From the NCBI RefSeq assembly GCF_030733745.1, contig NZ_JASHIK010000001.1:186001-250000 (forward strand): a DNA stretch of 64,000 bases, written 5' to 3'. The stretch is from Stappia sp. MMSF_3263 (lineage in GTDB: Bacteria > Pseudomonadota > Alphaproteobacteria > Rhizobiales > Stappiaceae). The position numbers and the translations under genes are program-made. Positions 18,847 through 23,579 of the stretch are shown piece by piece (position 1 is the first letter of the stretch; every line of letters starts with the position of its first letter). Under the pieces are notes generated by a model that was not told the origin of the DNA, did not search any database, and worked only from the letters and a program-made list of their open reading frames with translations.

Positions 18847-18923
18847 GCAGACGTAGCTCAGTTGGTTAGAGCGTCGGATTGTGGCTCCGAAGGTCGTTGG
18901 TTCAACTCCAACCGTCTGTACCA
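18847..18923 (+). tRNA. tRNA-His (GTG anticodon)
   Basis: 77 nt including an encoded CCA. All arms pair: acceptor GCAGACG/CGTCTGT, D stem GCTC/GAGC, anticodon stem TCGGA/TCCGA with loop TTGTGGC, T stem GTTGG/CCAAC. The discriminator is A73 and position -1 is T, so the usual G-1:C73 identity pair is absent. This is the known unusual tRNA-His type of many alphaproteobacteria, matched by a divergent HisRS. Confidence 0.97.
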
Positions 18924-19198: not shown

Positions 19199-19618
19199 AT
19201 GGACAGTGAAGCGGAAACCCCGGTGGCGGCCGGTGGCGTTGCGACCGCCTACCGCATGCGGCGCCTGCTCGAAACCTACTACGACCTGACATTGCAGATC
19301 AGCGATCGGTTCGAGGTGCGTGACGTTGCCGACGTGCTGCTGCTGGTGCTCGTCGCCATCGCGGATCTGCGGGGCGCGCCGATGGATGCCGAACTGCTGG
19401 CGGAAAAGCTCGGCACGTCGCGCTCGACCGTCGAGCGACGCTTGCGCCCTTATCTGGATGACGGCCGGATTGCCAAGGAACGACGCGGAAAGTCGGTCGT
19501 TTATCTGTGGTCGACGGAAATGGCTTGCGGAAAATCCGCCGAGCGCGCGGATCCCGACATGAGCGTCGACATGGTTCGGGCGGTGATGGCGATGGTTTTC
19601 GACGTGGCGAACGATTGA
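19199..19618 (+). CDS. Small winged-helix DNA-binding protein (paralogue A)
   Basis: Unassigned 139-residue protein with a central winged-helix-like segment: DAELLAEKLGTSRSTVERRL reads as helix-turn-helix and the following DDGRIAKERRGKSVVYLWS as the beta wing. A short helix ends the protein. ATG 19199 is preceded by GGGGAGGGG. It is clearly related to the next gene over about 100 residues (EVRD/EVKD, STV, DG.I, S.EM at matching positions), but its codon use is GC-rich like the surroundings. A MarR- or PadR-like sensor or DNA-binding regulator is the likeliest class; no ligand or target is evident. Confidence 0.7.
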   Translation: MDSEAETPVAAGGVATAYRMRRLLETYYDLTLQISDRFEVRDVADVLLLVLVAIADLRGAPMDAELLAEKLGTSRSTVERRLRPYLDDGRIAKERRGKSVVYLWSTEMACGKSAERADPDMSVDMVRAVMAMVFDVAND

Positions 19619-19747
19619 GGCAGCGCAAGGCCGAGTTGGTTAAAATTTGTGGAAAAACTGAATCTAAGCCCGAATTACCCTGGGGAATATGAAGCCAAGT
19701 CGAGAACCGGTTGTTGCATGCGTGCGAATCCATGCGCAAAGCGGGCA

Positions 19748-19770
19748 ACATTCGTCAAAATGACGAATGT
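19748..19770. promoter_or_regulatory. Perfect 10-bp inverted repeat before paralogue B
   Basis: ACATTCGTCA and TGACGAATGT flank AAA and end 20 nt before the start codon of the AT-rich winged-helix gene. This is a strong operator candidate for autoregulation or regulation by paralogue A. There is no T-run to suggest termination. Confidence 0.6.
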
Positions 19771-19790
19771 AAGGCACCAAGGAGGCGCCG

Positions 19791-20213
19791 ATGTCATCAC
19801 AAGATGAAGAACTTTCGACTCAGGCTCACCGGATACTCCGCCTCTATGAGATGTTCTTCAGTCTCATGTTCCGGTTTATGGAGGAGTATGAAGTAAAAGA
19901 CCTGGGTCAATTGATGATACTGACGACAATTTCGATTGCAAATGCAAACAAAGTAGATCCGGATATTGAGATAATATCTGAAGAAACAGATATACCGTAT
20001 TCGACGGTACGCAGAAAAATCGAGAAAATGTGTGAAGATGGAATGATTTGCGTTAGGAAATCTAATAGCAAGCTTTTGTTTTCTATATCTCCTGAGATGA
20101 AGTTTGCTCATCCTGAACAAAGTGAAGAAAAATCAAATAAAAATTTTCAGAATGATGTATTAGACATTGTAGTAAAATCACTTACATCAATAATACTTGA
20201 GAAAAATAAGTAA
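19791..20213 (+). CDS. Small winged-helix DNA-binding protein (paralogue B, AT-rich)
   Basis: 140-residue protein homologous to the preceding gene. EIISEETDIPYSTVRRKIEK is the helix-turn-helix and EDGMICVRKSNSKLLFSI the wing, followed by a polar linker (about residues 107-119) and a hydrophobic C-terminal helix. The gene is strikingly AT-rich, about one third GC in its second half by eye, against well above 60% around it, and uses AAA/AAT/ATA codons. This suggests transfer or relaxed composition. AAGGAGG lies before the ATG, and a perfect inverted repeat lies 20 nt upstream. It is followed by the gcrA promoter region. Function unknown. Confidence 0.7.
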   Translation: MSSQDEELSTQAHRILRLYEMFFSLMFRFMEEYEVKDLGQLMILTTISIANANKVDPDIEIISEETDIPYSTVRRKIEKMCEDGMICVRKSNSKLLFSISPEMKFAHPEQSEEKSNKNFQNDVLDIVVKSLTSIILEKNK

Positions 20214-20246
20214 AAACCAAAGTGAAAATTTGTTTAGATTGACCTG

Positions 20247-20261
20247 TTAAGGATTTGTTCA
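20247..20261 (+). promoter_or_regulatory. CtrA-box-like sequence upstream of gcrA
   Basis: TTAAGGATTTGTTCA matches TTAA-N7-TTAA except for one base, in the AT-rich region before gcrA. CtrA controls gcrA in Caulobacter, so the position is plausible, but one near match is weak evidence. Confidence 0.3.
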
Positions 20262-20476
20262 CTATAAATTACGCATAGTCGATGGCGAGTTCATCGAACG
20301 GCACGTGGCCCTAAGGCGGCATCCGCCAGGGCCCCCATCAGGGCGATCTCGGTCGCTATCGCAACAGAAACGAGTTGGCGGCCTTCGGCACCCCAGGAAA
20401 GGGTTTCGAGGGAACGGGAGAGATGTGTACCCGCGTAACCGTCTCCGCCAGGTGACAAGAAGAAGTGGGGCTGAAC

Positions 20477-21022
20477 ATGGCTTGGACACAGGAACGCGAA
20501 GATCTGCTCAGGAAGCTCTGGCTGCAAGGCCTCAGCGCAAGCCAGATTGCCTATGTTATGGCGGGCGTGACCCGTAACGCGGTGATCGGCAAGGCTCATC
20601 GCATGGGTCTGCCCAAGCGTTCGCCGGCCACCAGCCACCGTCCCAAGCCCCGCGTGCAGCGCGGCAAGCCCTCGCTCGCCTTTGTCGGCGGCAAGCCGGC
20701 AGCGCGCGACACCGCGTCCGATGTTCAGTATCGCCGTGGCCTCGACTTCGACACCGCGCACAAGAGCTTCGATGTTGCGCACTCCGATGTCGCCGCGGAA
20801 GACCGTATCACGCTGATGACGCTGACCAGCCGTACATGCAAGTGGCCGATCGGCGACCCGGCAGACGCGGATTTCCACTTCTGCAGCCAGGATGCGGAAA
20901 ACAACCGCTCCTACTGTGAGTTCCATCACCGGCTCGCATACCAGGGTGTGCGTCGCCGCCGCCCGGCGGAGAAGACGGCCTCGGCGCCTGTCGCCCTCCC
21001 GCTGCGCGCCATCGCGGTCTGA
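20477..21022 (+). CDS. gcrA: Cell cycle regulator GcrA
   Basis: Sigma-70-associated cell-cycle regulator conserved in alphaproteobacteria; in Caulobacter it acts at promoters carrying GANTC sites methylated by CcrM. The 181 residues show the signature N-terminus WTQEREDLLRKLWLQGLSAS, then GVTRNAVIGKAHRMGLPKR, and the C-terminal CKWPIGDP, FCSQ and SYCEFHHRLAY motifs. I use ATG 20477 because family members start at the MxWT motif; an in-frame GTG four codons earlier is possible. The preceding 263 nt are AT-rich and contain the presumed promoter. A tandem array of terminator-like repeats follows. Confidence 0.96.
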   Translation: MAWTQEREDLLRKLWLQGLSASQIAYVMAGVTRNAVIGKAHRMGLPKRSPATSHRPKPRVQRGKPSLAFVGGKPAARDTASDVQYRRGLDFDTAHKSFDVAHSDVAAEDRITLMTLTSRTCKWPIGDPADADFHFCSQDAENNRSYCEFHHRLAYQGVRRRRPAEKTASAPVALPLRAIAV

Positions 21023-21098
21023 GCCCAAAGGTTCGGGCCCGACAGTTCGGGTACGACGCTCCCTGCTTCCTCCCTCCCAGGCAGATGCGTTTGCCCCA

Positions 21099-21129
21099 GG
21101 CGGGGCCGGTGTTCCGGCCCCGCCTTTTT
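21099..21129 (+). terminator. Terminator of gcrA (first unit of the array)
   Basis: An 11-bp stem GGCGGGGCCGG/CCGGCCCCGCC with a TGTT loop is followed by TTTTT. Confidence 0.88.
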
Positions 21130-21286
21130 CATGTCCGGCTTGAGCCGGAAGGGGCCGGTGTTCCGGCCCCGCCTTTTTCATGTCCGGCTTGAGCCGGAAG
21201 GGGCCGGTGTTCCGGGCCTGACCTTTTCATGTCCGGCTTGAGCCGGAAGGGGCCGGTGTTCCGGCCCTGACCTTTTCATGTCCGGC
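21102..21286 (+). repeat. Tandem 49-bp repeat array of terminator-like hairpins (3.8 copies)
   Basis: Units start at 21102, 21151, 21200 and 21249, an exact 49-bp period; the last stops at 21286. Each has GGGGCCGG-TGTT-CCGG plus T-run, and units 1-3 then have CCGGC-TTGA-GCCGG. Units 1 and 2 have CCGGCCCCGCCTTTTT, while 3 and 4 drift to GGCCTGACCTTTT or GCCCTGACCTTTT. Confidence 0.93.
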
Positions 21287-21396
21287 AGATCCGTGCGACT
21301 GGCATTGCGGCAGATTTGATTTCGCTCATTGCGGGATGCCCGATCCCGTTGAAACTGCTAATATTCGCCGAGCGGAAAGCAGGAGCCCCGACACCC

Positions 21397-21777
21397 ATGA
21401 CCACCCATTCAGGCCTCAAGAAGATCCGCCTCAACCTGGCGCGCACCCGGGAGTTCCCGAACGGCTCGGCGCGGCATGGCTACGAGTTCATTGCGCCGCT
21501 GGATGCGAACGATCACATCGACGCCGGGGAGTGGCGGAAGCACCGGGCCCAGTGCCGGGTGCGCCGGTTCTGGGCCGACGAGGAAGAGGATATCGGGCAT
21601 CTCCGCCATCGCCCGGGTGGCTCCTGGGCCTTCCATTACGACATCGACGGTGATGAGGACGACGAGGCGGGATACCGTTTCGGCGCCCATCCCTTCCGCC
21701 CCGGGGAGTACGTTTCGATCAAGGACGAGGACGGCGAGTTGCATACGTTCCAGGTCGTGACCGTGCAGGATCTGTGA
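21397..21777 (+). CDS. Conserved hypothetical protein
   Basis: A 126-residue soluble protein I do not recognise by function. It opens with basic KKIRLNLARTREFPNGSARHGYEF, has RAQCRVRRFW in the middle, an acidic DIDGDEDDEAGYRF loop (about 86-99) and ends with HPFRPGEYVSIKDEDGELHTF. No signal peptide, membrane segment or cysteine pair is visible. ATG 21397 fits the basic start; an AGGAG lies 11 nt upstream. It is alone on its strand between gcrA and the ThDP enzyme. Good codon bias supports a real gene. Confidence 0.7.
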   Translation: MTTHSGLKKIRLNLARTREFPNGSARHGYEFIAPLDANDHIDAGEWRKHRAQCRVRRFWADEEEDIGHLRHRPGGSWAFHYDIDGDEDDEAGYRFGAHPFRPGEYVSIKDEDGELHTFQVVTVQDL

Positions 21778-21905: not shown

Positions 21906-23579
21906 ATGGAAAAGCGTGCGGCGCGCCGGCTCACCGGCACCGGTGGGGTCCTGCTTGTCAGGGCACTCGAGCAGTTGGGTGCCGAGCGCGTCTTCTGCGT
22001 TCCCGGTGAGAGCTACCTGCCGGTTCTCGACGCGTTGCACGACGCATCGATCCCGGTGACCGTCTGCCGCCAGGAGGGCGGCGCCGCGATGATGGCGGAG
22101 GCCTTCGGCAAGATGACGGCGCGCCCGGGCATCTGCATGGTGACCCGCGGTCCCGGCGCGACGAATGCCGCCGCCGGCGTCCATGTGGCGCAGCAGGATT
22201 CGACACCGATGATCCTCTTCGTCGGCCAGATCGAGACCGGCATGCGGGGGCGCGACGCCTTCCAGGAGGTCGATTACCGCCAGTTCTTCGGCGGCATGGC
22301 CAAATGGGTGGCCGAGATCGAGGACCCCGCCCGTATCCCCGAAATGCTGTCGCGGGCCTATCATGTGGCCACGTCAGGCCGCCCCGGCCCGGTCGTTCTG
22401 GCGCTGCCGGAGGACATGCTGGCGCAGACTGCCGAGGTCGCCGAACTGCCGGCCTTCGTTCCGCTTGAAACGCATCCCTCGCTTGCCCAGATGGCGGATC
22501 TGCAGAAGCGCCTTTGGGCGGCGAAGCGCCCGCTCGCCATTCTCGGCGGCAGCCGTTGGAGCGAGGGCGCGCGGGCGGCCTTCACCCGCTTTGCCGAGCG
22601 CTTCCAACTGCCCACCGCCTGCTCCTTCCGCCGCCAGATGCTGTTCGACAACCTGCATGGAAACTATGCCGGCGACGTTGGTATCGGCATCAACCCGAAG
22701 CTGGCGGAGCGCGTTCGCGAGGCCGACCTGCTGTTGCTCGTCGGCGGCCGCCTGTCGGAAATGCCCAGCCAGTCCTACGGGCTGCTGGACATTCCGCAGC
22801 CGCGCCAGACCCTGGTGCATGTCCATGCCGGGGCCGAGGAACTCGGCCGTGTCTATCTGCCGGATCTCGCCATCCATGCGACGCCGAACGGGTTCTGCGC
22901 GGCGCTCGAGGCGCTTCAGCCGCCGAACGCGATAGCCTGGGAAGGGGCGGCCGCAACCGCTCACGACGATTATCTTGCATGGTCCGGGGCGCGGCCGCAG
23001 GTGCCCGGCGCGCTGCAGATGGCGCAGGTGATGGACTGGCTCGAGCAGCACTTGCCCGAGGATGCGATCCTGGCCAATGGCGCTGGCAATTACGCCACCT
23101 GGGTGCACCGCTTTCACCGCTTTCGCCGCCTCAACACACAACTTGCGCCGACCAGTGGCTCGATGGGCTACGGCCTTCCCGCCGCGGTTGCCGGCAAGCT
23201 GAAATATCCGGAGCGCATGGTGGTCTGTTTTGCCGGCGATGGCTGCTTGCAGATGACCATGCAGGAGTTCGGCACGGCGGCGCAGGAGGGGGCCGCGATC
23301 ATCACCATTGTCGTCGACAACGGCATGTACGGCACCATCCGCATGCACCAGGAGCGCGACTTCCCCGGGCGTGTCTCGGCGACAACGCTGGTCAATCCGG
23401 ACTTTGCTGCCTTCGCTCGCGCCTATGGCGCCCATGCGGAGATGGTGGAAACGGCGGCTGAATTCGCGCCGGCCTTCGAGCGCGCGGCAGCATCCGGCAA
23501 GCCGGCCTTGCTGCATCTGAAGCTCGATCCGGAGGCGATCACGCCGGTTCGCTCGCTCAGCCAGATCCGCGCCGGCTGA
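21906..23579 (+). CDS. Thiamine-diphosphate enzyme, acetolactate synthase-like large subunit
   Basis: ThDP-dependent enzyme of the acetolactate synthase/benzoylformate decarboxylase superfamily, 557 residues. The cofactor-activating glutamate is in RQEGGAA (E57), and the ThDP/Mg motif starts at GDG 444-446 and ends at DN 471-472. No small regulatory subunit gene is adjacent and there is no other branched-chain gene nearby, so I read it as a catabolic or specialised homologue, not IlvB proper. Oxalyl-CoA decarboxylase and sulphoacetaldehyde acetyltransferase are less likely from the motifs but cannot be excluded. It converges on the acyl-CoA synthetase/GNAT gene. Confidence 0.78.
   Translation: MEKRAARRLTGTGGVLLVRALEQLGAERVFCVPGESYLPVLDALHDASIPVTVCRQEGGAAMMAEAFGKMTARPGICMVTRGPGATNAAAGVHVAQQDSTPMILFVGQIETGMRGRDAFQEVDYRQFFGGMAKWVAEIEDPARIPEMLSRAYHVATSGRPGPVVLALPEDMLAQTAEVAELPAFVPLETHPSLAQMADLQKRLWAAKRPLAILGGSRWSEGARAAFTRFAERFQLPTACSFRRQMLFDNLHGNYAGDVGIGINPKLAERVREADLLLLVGGRLSEMPSQSYGLLDIPQPRQTLVHVHAGAEELGRVYLPDLAIHATPNGFCAALEALQPPNAIAWEGAAATAHDDYLAWSGARPQVPGALQMAQVMDWLEQHLPEDAILANGAGNYATWVHRFHRFRRLNTQLAPTSGSMGYGLPAAVAGKLKYPERMVVCFAGDGCLQMTMQEFGTAAQEGAAIITIVVDNGMYGTIRMHQERDFPGRVSATTLVNPDFAAFARAYGAHAEMVETAAEFAPAFERAAASGKPALLHLKLDPEAITPVRSLSQIRAG

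Follow-up and report, generated by a model that had tools for sequence, protein, structure and literature searches.

The activator GcrA governs the cell cycle globally and reads the methylation of DNA. Its domain limits are given as residues 1-45 for the N-terminal DNA-binding domain and residues 108-173 for the C-terminal sigma-interacting domain (PMC7403470). In Caulobacter, CtrA is described to bind at the start of gcrA and to repress this gene (PMC3556154). Next to GcrA, Caulobacter crescentus is reported to possess the paralogue GcrB (CCNA_01269), which is 44% identical to GcrA and whose ectopic gene partly compensates for the loss of gcrA (PMC3885167). GcrA homologues are also carried by phiCbK-like Caulobacter phages (PMC3556154). 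Moreover, GcrA-family genes are present in plasmid records of several alphaproteobacteria, from a collection without any match to the proteins A and B described below. In three Caulobacter plasmids (L244, L246, L247), the GcrA-family gene is followed shortly downstream by a DUF2493 gene and has ssb within a few kb. Taken together, GcrB and the phage and plasmid genes mean that extra GcrA proteins are already known. In the literature we found no study of a GcrA paralogue besides GcrB, nothing on GcrA in Stappia or on CtrA in Stappiaceae, and no account of winged-helix partners, a private operator or an AT-rich gene such as B beside GcrA.

The locus presented here is part of the window, as we call the whole stretch of 64,000 nucleotides that was analysed. 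Its left border is formed by a tRNA-His (gtg; positions 18847-18923, plus strand, by tRNA call and Rfam), the sole Rfam match in the region. Two genes follow on the plus strand, the GC-rich gene A (19199-19618, 139 amino acids; assigned by open reading frame, alignment and AlphaFold model) and the AT-rich gene B (19791-20213, 140 amino acids; assigned by open reading frame, GC3 and AlphaFold model), and the sequence AGGAGG at 19780-19785 (plus strand) is likely the ribosome-binding site of B. The initial annotation of this DNA had described the two as adjacent, diverged winged-helix paralogues of unequal GC content, and this description holds. Both open reading frames are present where it had placed them, and the homology on which it hinged is significant, since the proteins align over about 117 positions with 25% identity (E 9e-12) and a comparison of profile against profile gives a probability of 97.9% (E 4.6e-13). 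The sequence motifs it had listed as common to A and B are all visible in the pairwise alignment. The GC content drops from 0.63 in A to 0.35 in B, and the two halves of B have 0.40 and then 0.31, close to the one third that had been estimated for the second half. The B region also contains the lowest-GC 300-bp stretch of the window (0.29), the minimum elsewhere being 0.53. An AHPxQ motif is invariant in the B proteins of all 17 loci discussed below and missing from A, and a cysteine (C81), found in 16 of the 17, is a possible sensing residue.

The AlphaFold monomer models, which are of moderate confidence (pLDDT 75 for A and 77 for B), predict the same element order helix-helix-HTH-wing-helix for both proteins. 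Among the PDB matches listed by Foldseek and VIA-align, most are generic winged-helix proteins of the MarR, ArsR and DtxR types, with best Foldseek E-values of 3.3e-4 (A) and 1.4e-3 (B) for these monomer models. The matches listed include no family that is closer than these generic types, although a family missing from such lists is not thereby excluded. In the comparison with MarR folds that the annotation had suggested, MarR chains are among the matches and the element order fits, but ArsR and DtxR chains are mixed in. The annotation had named membership in a well-characterised family as a point that would speak against it. In the domain searches, A and B of the window stay below the cut-off of every Pfam family, neither of the MarR models (MarR, MarR_2) is listed for them at E-values up to 1, and NCBIfam contains nothing near cut-off. 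Below the cut-offs, TrmB (PF01978) reaches 19.5 bits with B of the window (cut-off 25.6) and matches 15 of the 17 B members weakly (best E 3.6e-4), HVO_A0261_N (PF25213) reaches 22.5 bits with A of the window (cut-off 35) and matches 16 of the 17 A members (best E 5e-8), and MarR_2 is reported for a single one of the 17 A members (E 1.2e-4). The DnaD-like helicase loader profile phrog_7498, a PHROG profile without curated cut-off, matches the winged-helix part of B only (residues 61-118, E 2.8e-5). A and B look like MarR-type repressors by their predicted anatomy, not by a Pfam match.

The gene downstream of the pair, gcrA2 (20477-21022, plus strand), encodes a GcrA-family protein of 181 amino acids, as judged from Pfam, tree and alignment. 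The Pfam GcrA model (PF07750) matches positions 20480-21022 of the window with 145.2 bits (cut-off 26.9, E 2.7e-42), and at the sequence level both domains of C. crescentus GcrA (5yiu, 5yix and the full chain 7ye1) can be aligned with GcrA2. All 17 genomes that carry A and B possess two GcrA genes; the copy beside the pair is 55-100% identical to GcrA2 of the window, the copy elsewhere 42-47%. In the genome of the window, the canonical gcrA lies on the same contig (C11:473602-474138), 0.27 Mb away from gcrA2, and the two proteins are 46% identical. The initial annotation was therefore right in placing the pair between tRNA-His and a GcrA-type gene, but this neighbour is a diverged second copy and not the master cell-cycle regulator that it had been taken for.

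Among 19 of the 20 family genomes without the pair (G032 was left out), 18 gave one GcrA match each, and G028 gave three partial ones with 40-55% identity over the matched parts; a GcrA2-like gene is present in none of the 19. In a GcrA tree of 70 rows, the 17 GcrA2 proteins form one clade on a long stem (support 100/100), and the canonical copies of the pair-bearing genomes, of which 13 of 17 were included, nest within the family (two of the three G028 rows were omitted). A canonical ortholog should be placed with the family's single GcrA, and GcrA2 is not. A GcrA match is present in 390 of 397 genomes of the order, but among the matches listed, those with at least 55% identity to GcrA2 come only from the eight sampled pair-bearing genomes, all others being at or below 50%. 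On the grounds of sequence, the gene beside the pair is a second, deeply diverged GcrA that is distinct from the canonical gcrA and that may have arisen by duplication or by transfer. In one genus from another family of the order (g42, family f36), two to four GcrA matches per genome were seen among the matches listed, so that multiple GcrA proteins arose elsewhere too.

The pair was found in 17 of 61 relatives, that is in all 14 members of the genus, in all three of its sister genus (g7) and in none of the 44 others (in the relatives, a script chose where each of the two genes starts), and all 17 genomes keep the gene order A-B-gcrA2. The named records with B comprise eight Stappia, one MAG labelled Rhodobacteraceae and the three sister-genus members Hongsoonwoonella zoysiae, Stappia sediminis and S. 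albiluteola. Profile scans of the 397 genomes of the order gave matches in 9 genomes for B and 13 for A, eight of each belonging to the module's own family. The remaining matches (one for B, five for A) were rejected as homologues, because by eye they look like winged-helix proteins of the ArsR or GntR type. These profile scans listed the cognate gene alone for each pair-bearing genome, and single-sequence scans listed both genes. A class-wide scan of 385 genomes with B matched its own genome only. The question raised by the annotation, whether both genes co-occur and always flank gcrA, is answered in the affirmative at 17 of 17 loci with the neighbour being a gcrA-family gene, but the wider homologues that a profile search might have revealed did not appear in the order and class scans. 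Genera outside the sample may carry the module as well.

The cluster of A, B and gcrA2 is real and has been conserved by vertical descent. Its most plausible interpretation is that of a regulatory module, a function that we infer. The complete explanation that we prefer, an inherited module in which A and B would exert feedback on a private operator beside an alternative GcrA, has in our view about an even chance of being correct. Co-inheritance of the three genes is no proof of a functional link. It is a serious possibility, although an unlikely one, that A and B together are a self-contained, ligand-sensing feedback regulator of something else and that GcrA2 is a passenger by vertical descent. 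Such a passenger would explain that the gcrA2 promoter has its own conserved elements and no good palindrome (see below). Moreover, in three regions of the genus the gene order matches that of the window over most of 19.6 kb, which makes co-inheritance of gcrA2 with the pair cheap. However, the three genes occur together in every one of the 17 genomes from two genera, and the 19 pair-less family genomes have no GcrA2-like gene. They are also set apart from their downstream neighbours, gene X (21316-21777) and gene Y (21906-23579): in the five regions with all five genes, X and Y are 79-88% identical and A, B and gcrA2 46-81%, meaning that the latter evolve faster than their syntenic neighbours.

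The surroundings of the tRNA-His bear on a further alternative. A tRNA-His precedes A at 10 of the 17 loci, and the other seven have none within about 0.9 kb upstream; two loci (L005 and L010) show apparently coding sequence directly upstream of A, where others have the tRNA-His. At 13 of 19 family loci, 10 of those being pair-less, phasin genes were found no further than 1.5 kb upstream of the tRNA-His. In nine pair-less regions downstream of tRNA-His, gene X was detected in four and gene Y in five, starting 4.8-8.7 kb into the region, and the three such regions that were inspected contain other open reading frames in between. The module thus occupies a place beside tRNA-His where pair-less relatives carry different genes. 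One could assume from this that the three genes go back to a piece of a phage or island that was inserted here and domesticated, all the more since GcrA relatives are encoded by phages and viral contigs and since the best Foldseek match of B in a viral structure library is a Pseudomonas phage protein without known function (E 9.3e-5, 16% identity). Several results speak against such an insertion, which we regard as doubtful. The window contains no repeat of the tRNA-His of at least 12 bp that could represent an attachment repeat, and inspection by eye of the corresponding stretches in three relatives revealed no integrase. A tblastn search with A and B in phage and plasmid collections matched nothing, the B profile confirmed none of 41 candidate stretches in viral contigs, and the open reading frames at 35 viral-contig loci with a GcrA2 match include no relative of A or B. 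Twelve phage records match GcrA2 over most of its length, with 24-35% identity. In a tree of chosen subsets (14 of the 17 GcrA2, 23 canonical and 34 viral proteins), GcrA2 does not join the viral rows with support, the root being open and seven viral rows lying among cellular GcrA. A viral origin of GcrA2 is unsupported in this tree.

A palindrome in the leader of B suggests how the pair might act. The spacer between A and B is 156-172 bp long in the genus and 165-166 bp in the sister genus, and at all 17 loci it contains the 17-bp sequence TTCGTCA-N3-TGACGAA at 21-28 bp before the start of B, with 11 exact copies and six with one mismatch. In the window, the palindrome reads TTCGTCA-AAA-TGACGAA (19751-19767, strand-neutral). 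Not one of 200 dinucleotide shuffles was as good at any of the 17 loci. If only exact copies with an A/T spacer are counted, 11 of the 14 genus genomes have a single site each, always at this locus (in the genome of the window the single site is the B leader), and in none of the 47 other genomes; those without it are three genomes of the genus and three of the sister genus, which have the one-mismatch forms, and the 44 pair-less ones. Since the strict site is confined to the pair's own spacer, the palindrome is best read as a putative private operator of the pair.

The uniqueness holds for the strict form. If any spacer and one mismatch are allowed, the mean is 4.0 sites in pair-bearing genomes and 3.9 in pair-less genomes of the family (1.1 in the order), with 2-8 sites in 15 pair-bearing and 0-7 in 22 pair-less genomes. 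Relaxed sites are thus equally common in the pair-less family genomes, it is the strict form that carries the signal at the genome level, and no wider regulon attributable to the pair is visible. We therefore rejected the idea of such a regulon. In most genomes searched, pair-less ones included, sites resembling TTCGTCA-N3-TGACGAA outnumber a reversed-pattern control, which means that something else favours such sites too. At least three pair-less genomes (G014, G016, G021) have the exact arms with another spacer. These related sites would suit a different transcription factor that binds the palindrome in place of A or B, whose own binding is inferred. We consider such a factor improbable, because among the 61 genomes the exact A/T-spacer site is confined to this locus and to pair-bearing genomes, and more sites would be expected of a regulator with a broader role. 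It is also quite improbable that the palindrome acts as an RNA hairpin controlling the translation of B, although it could form a stem of 7 bp with a loop of 3 nt and its position 21-28 nt before the start codon, beside the ribosome-binding site, would be suitable. The arms conserve letters and not pairing: each of the six variants has one change and none a compensating one; by eye, four of the six break a pair and two give G-U. This points to a DNA site rather than to an RNA hairpin, as does the recurrence of identical bases in both genera.

In the promoter of gcrA2, no palindrome was found within three mismatches at the 17 loci, save one weak site in L018, so any control of gcrA2 by A or B would have to act without a visible site. 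The gene instead appears to have a promoter of its own, as the element TTGACC-18-TATAAA (20239-20268, plus strand) is conserved in the alignment and likely serves this purpose, although a consensus promoter scan did not call it. Between its -35 and -10 parts lies a CtrA-like box, TTAA-N7-TTCA (20247-20261, plus strand), with one mismatch to TTAA-N7-TTAA, which we take to be the consensus of the CtrA box. All 17 loci have this box with at most one mismatch (eight exact, nine with one mismatch), and in all 17 TTGAC stands at a fixed offset, the box always starting eight bases after it. Shuffled sequences equalled the box in 5.5-14.5% of cases in eight tested one-mismatch loci and in 0-1.5% in exact loci. 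In AT-rich DNA, lone CtrA-like matches are not rare, and the stronger point is the constant position at 17 of 17 loci, not the single matches. CtrA control of GcrA was predicted to be absent in most Rhizobiales (PMC2877005); a functional CtrA-like box of gcrA2 would contradict or bypass this prediction, as far as the cited part of that study goes.

GANTC sites are no conserved feature of the module and were rejected as such. They occur upstream of gcrA2 at five of the 17 loci and in the spacer between A and B at ten, in six of these at -65. Canonical gcrA has two conserved GANTC sites at 10 of 13 loci examined (10 genus loci), near -186 and -108 (in two loci, -195 and -117), and thus differs in its upstream layout from gcrA2. 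A block resembling a DnaA box, TGTGGAAAA (19648-19656, plus strand), is present at 11 of the 14 genus loci and was not found in L016, L017 and the three sister-genus loci. The variant in L014 is TGTGGATAA, whose reverse complement fits the DnaA consensus given for Caulobacter (PMC2877005). Compared to this consensus, the block fits in one locus, is one base off in 11 and absent in five, so that the reading as a DnaA box is a weak one. Downstream of gcrA2, a terminator-like hairpin (21098-21125, plus strand) was called by consensus match only, with four such hairpins found in the region and 3.0 expected. The stretch 21098-21200 contains near-identical, GC-rich hairpin units repeated 3' of gcrA2, two of which are terminator-like.

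The AT-richness of B persists in all pair-bearing genomes. Across the 17 genomes, GC3 is 0.35-0.60 for B, 0.67-0.82 for A and 0.62-0.87 for gcrA2, and the GC content of four-fold sites is 0.49, 0.80 and 0.84, respectively. Codons among the 16 rarest of the window, according to a codon table from 20 hand-picked window ORFs that also served for comparison of GC3, number 22-46 per gene in B, 2-12 in A and 1-28 in gcrA2. The codon-usage scan that the annotation had proposed places B below both neighbours, and its suggestion that the pair diverged under different constraint gains support. At the same time, synonymous differences between the B genes have reached saturation (mean pS of 0.71 in the genus and 0.83 between the genera), with conservation of the protein (median dN of 0.18 in the genus). 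At such a divergence, no trace of an incomplete amelioration should be left. A recent acquisition of B from an AT-rich source, to which its GC content of 0.35 and a share of 36% FYMINK (AT-coded) residues within a window of 66% GC might point, is hardly credible, as B is present in all 17 genomes of both genera and AT-rich throughout despite saturated synonymous sites. Nor is there support for the other suggestion of the annotation, by which A would be an older copy that ameliorated and B an acquired gene, since A as well as B is present in all 17 genomes. Weak codon selection or a role in cis are candidate causes; most likely, the AT-rich coding keeps B poorly translated or serves to keep the stretch AT-rich for a reason in cis.

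The module that we favour would have been inherited vertically in Stappia and its sister genus, with A and B as MarR-like paralogues of the winged-helix type that arose when an ancestral gene was duplicated, before the two genera split. A and/or B, presumably as dimers, would bind the single palindrome in the B leader and repress B, a feedback that would be local rather than part of a wide regulon. GcrA2, which appears to have kept both GcrA domains and to have its own promoter, would come under the control of CtrA through the CtrA-like box. The pair would then set the timing of GcrA2 action, which would run as a side channel beside the canonical GcrA/CcrM circuit. The AT-rich coding sequence of B is not a relic of acquisition. 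A more elaborate version, which we put forward tentatively and which is unlikely to be right in every part, would give Stappia a parallel GcrA channel, i.e. an alternative methylation-reading sigma70 cofactor that is timed by CtrA and gated by a switch of A and B, with homodimers or heterodimers on one private operator and the AT-rich gene body of B as a throttle in cis.

For the marine bacterium Stappia and its sister genus, the arrangement points to a genetic switch of its own that may have been built onto the usual cell-cycle circuit. Across two genera, a second GcrA is tied to two dedicated regulators and a single candidate operator, which makes the module a small, genetically accessible case of a core cell-cycle circuit gaining a branch. 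Moreover, B is a clean natural case of a gene that stays AT-rich after synonymous saturation, with GC-rich genes at most 300 bp away on either side, and it can be used to test what holds base composition in place.

Compared to known systems, A and B share with winged-helix repressors of the MarR and ArsR types the predicted element order, the size of 139-140 amino acids and an adjacent palindromic site. In contrast to these, they stay below every Pfam cut-off and are confined to two genera in the sample. GcrA2 resembles GcrA, the sigma70 cofactor of Alphaproteobacteria, in its match to the Pfam GcrA model and in both domains that can be aligned to C. crescentus GcrA, but it forms a distinct clade on a long stem and has no GANTC upstream at 12 of the 17 loci. 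The GcrA proteins of phiCbK-like phages (PMC3556154) are, like GcrA2, extra GcrA proteins outside the canonical gene, as far as they are described there. However, in the 12 phage records matched over most of the length of GcrA2, the identity to it is 24-35%, and the 35 GcrA loci in viral contigs have no relatives of A or B. GcrB of Caulobacter (PMC3885167) can be compared by its description, in which it is, like GcrA2, a second GcrA beside the canonical one, with a similar degree of identity to the GcrA of its own genome (44% for GcrB, 46% for GcrA2). The cited part of this description mentions no winged-helix partners or private operator for GcrB, whereas the GcrA2 locus has both, the operator being a putative one.
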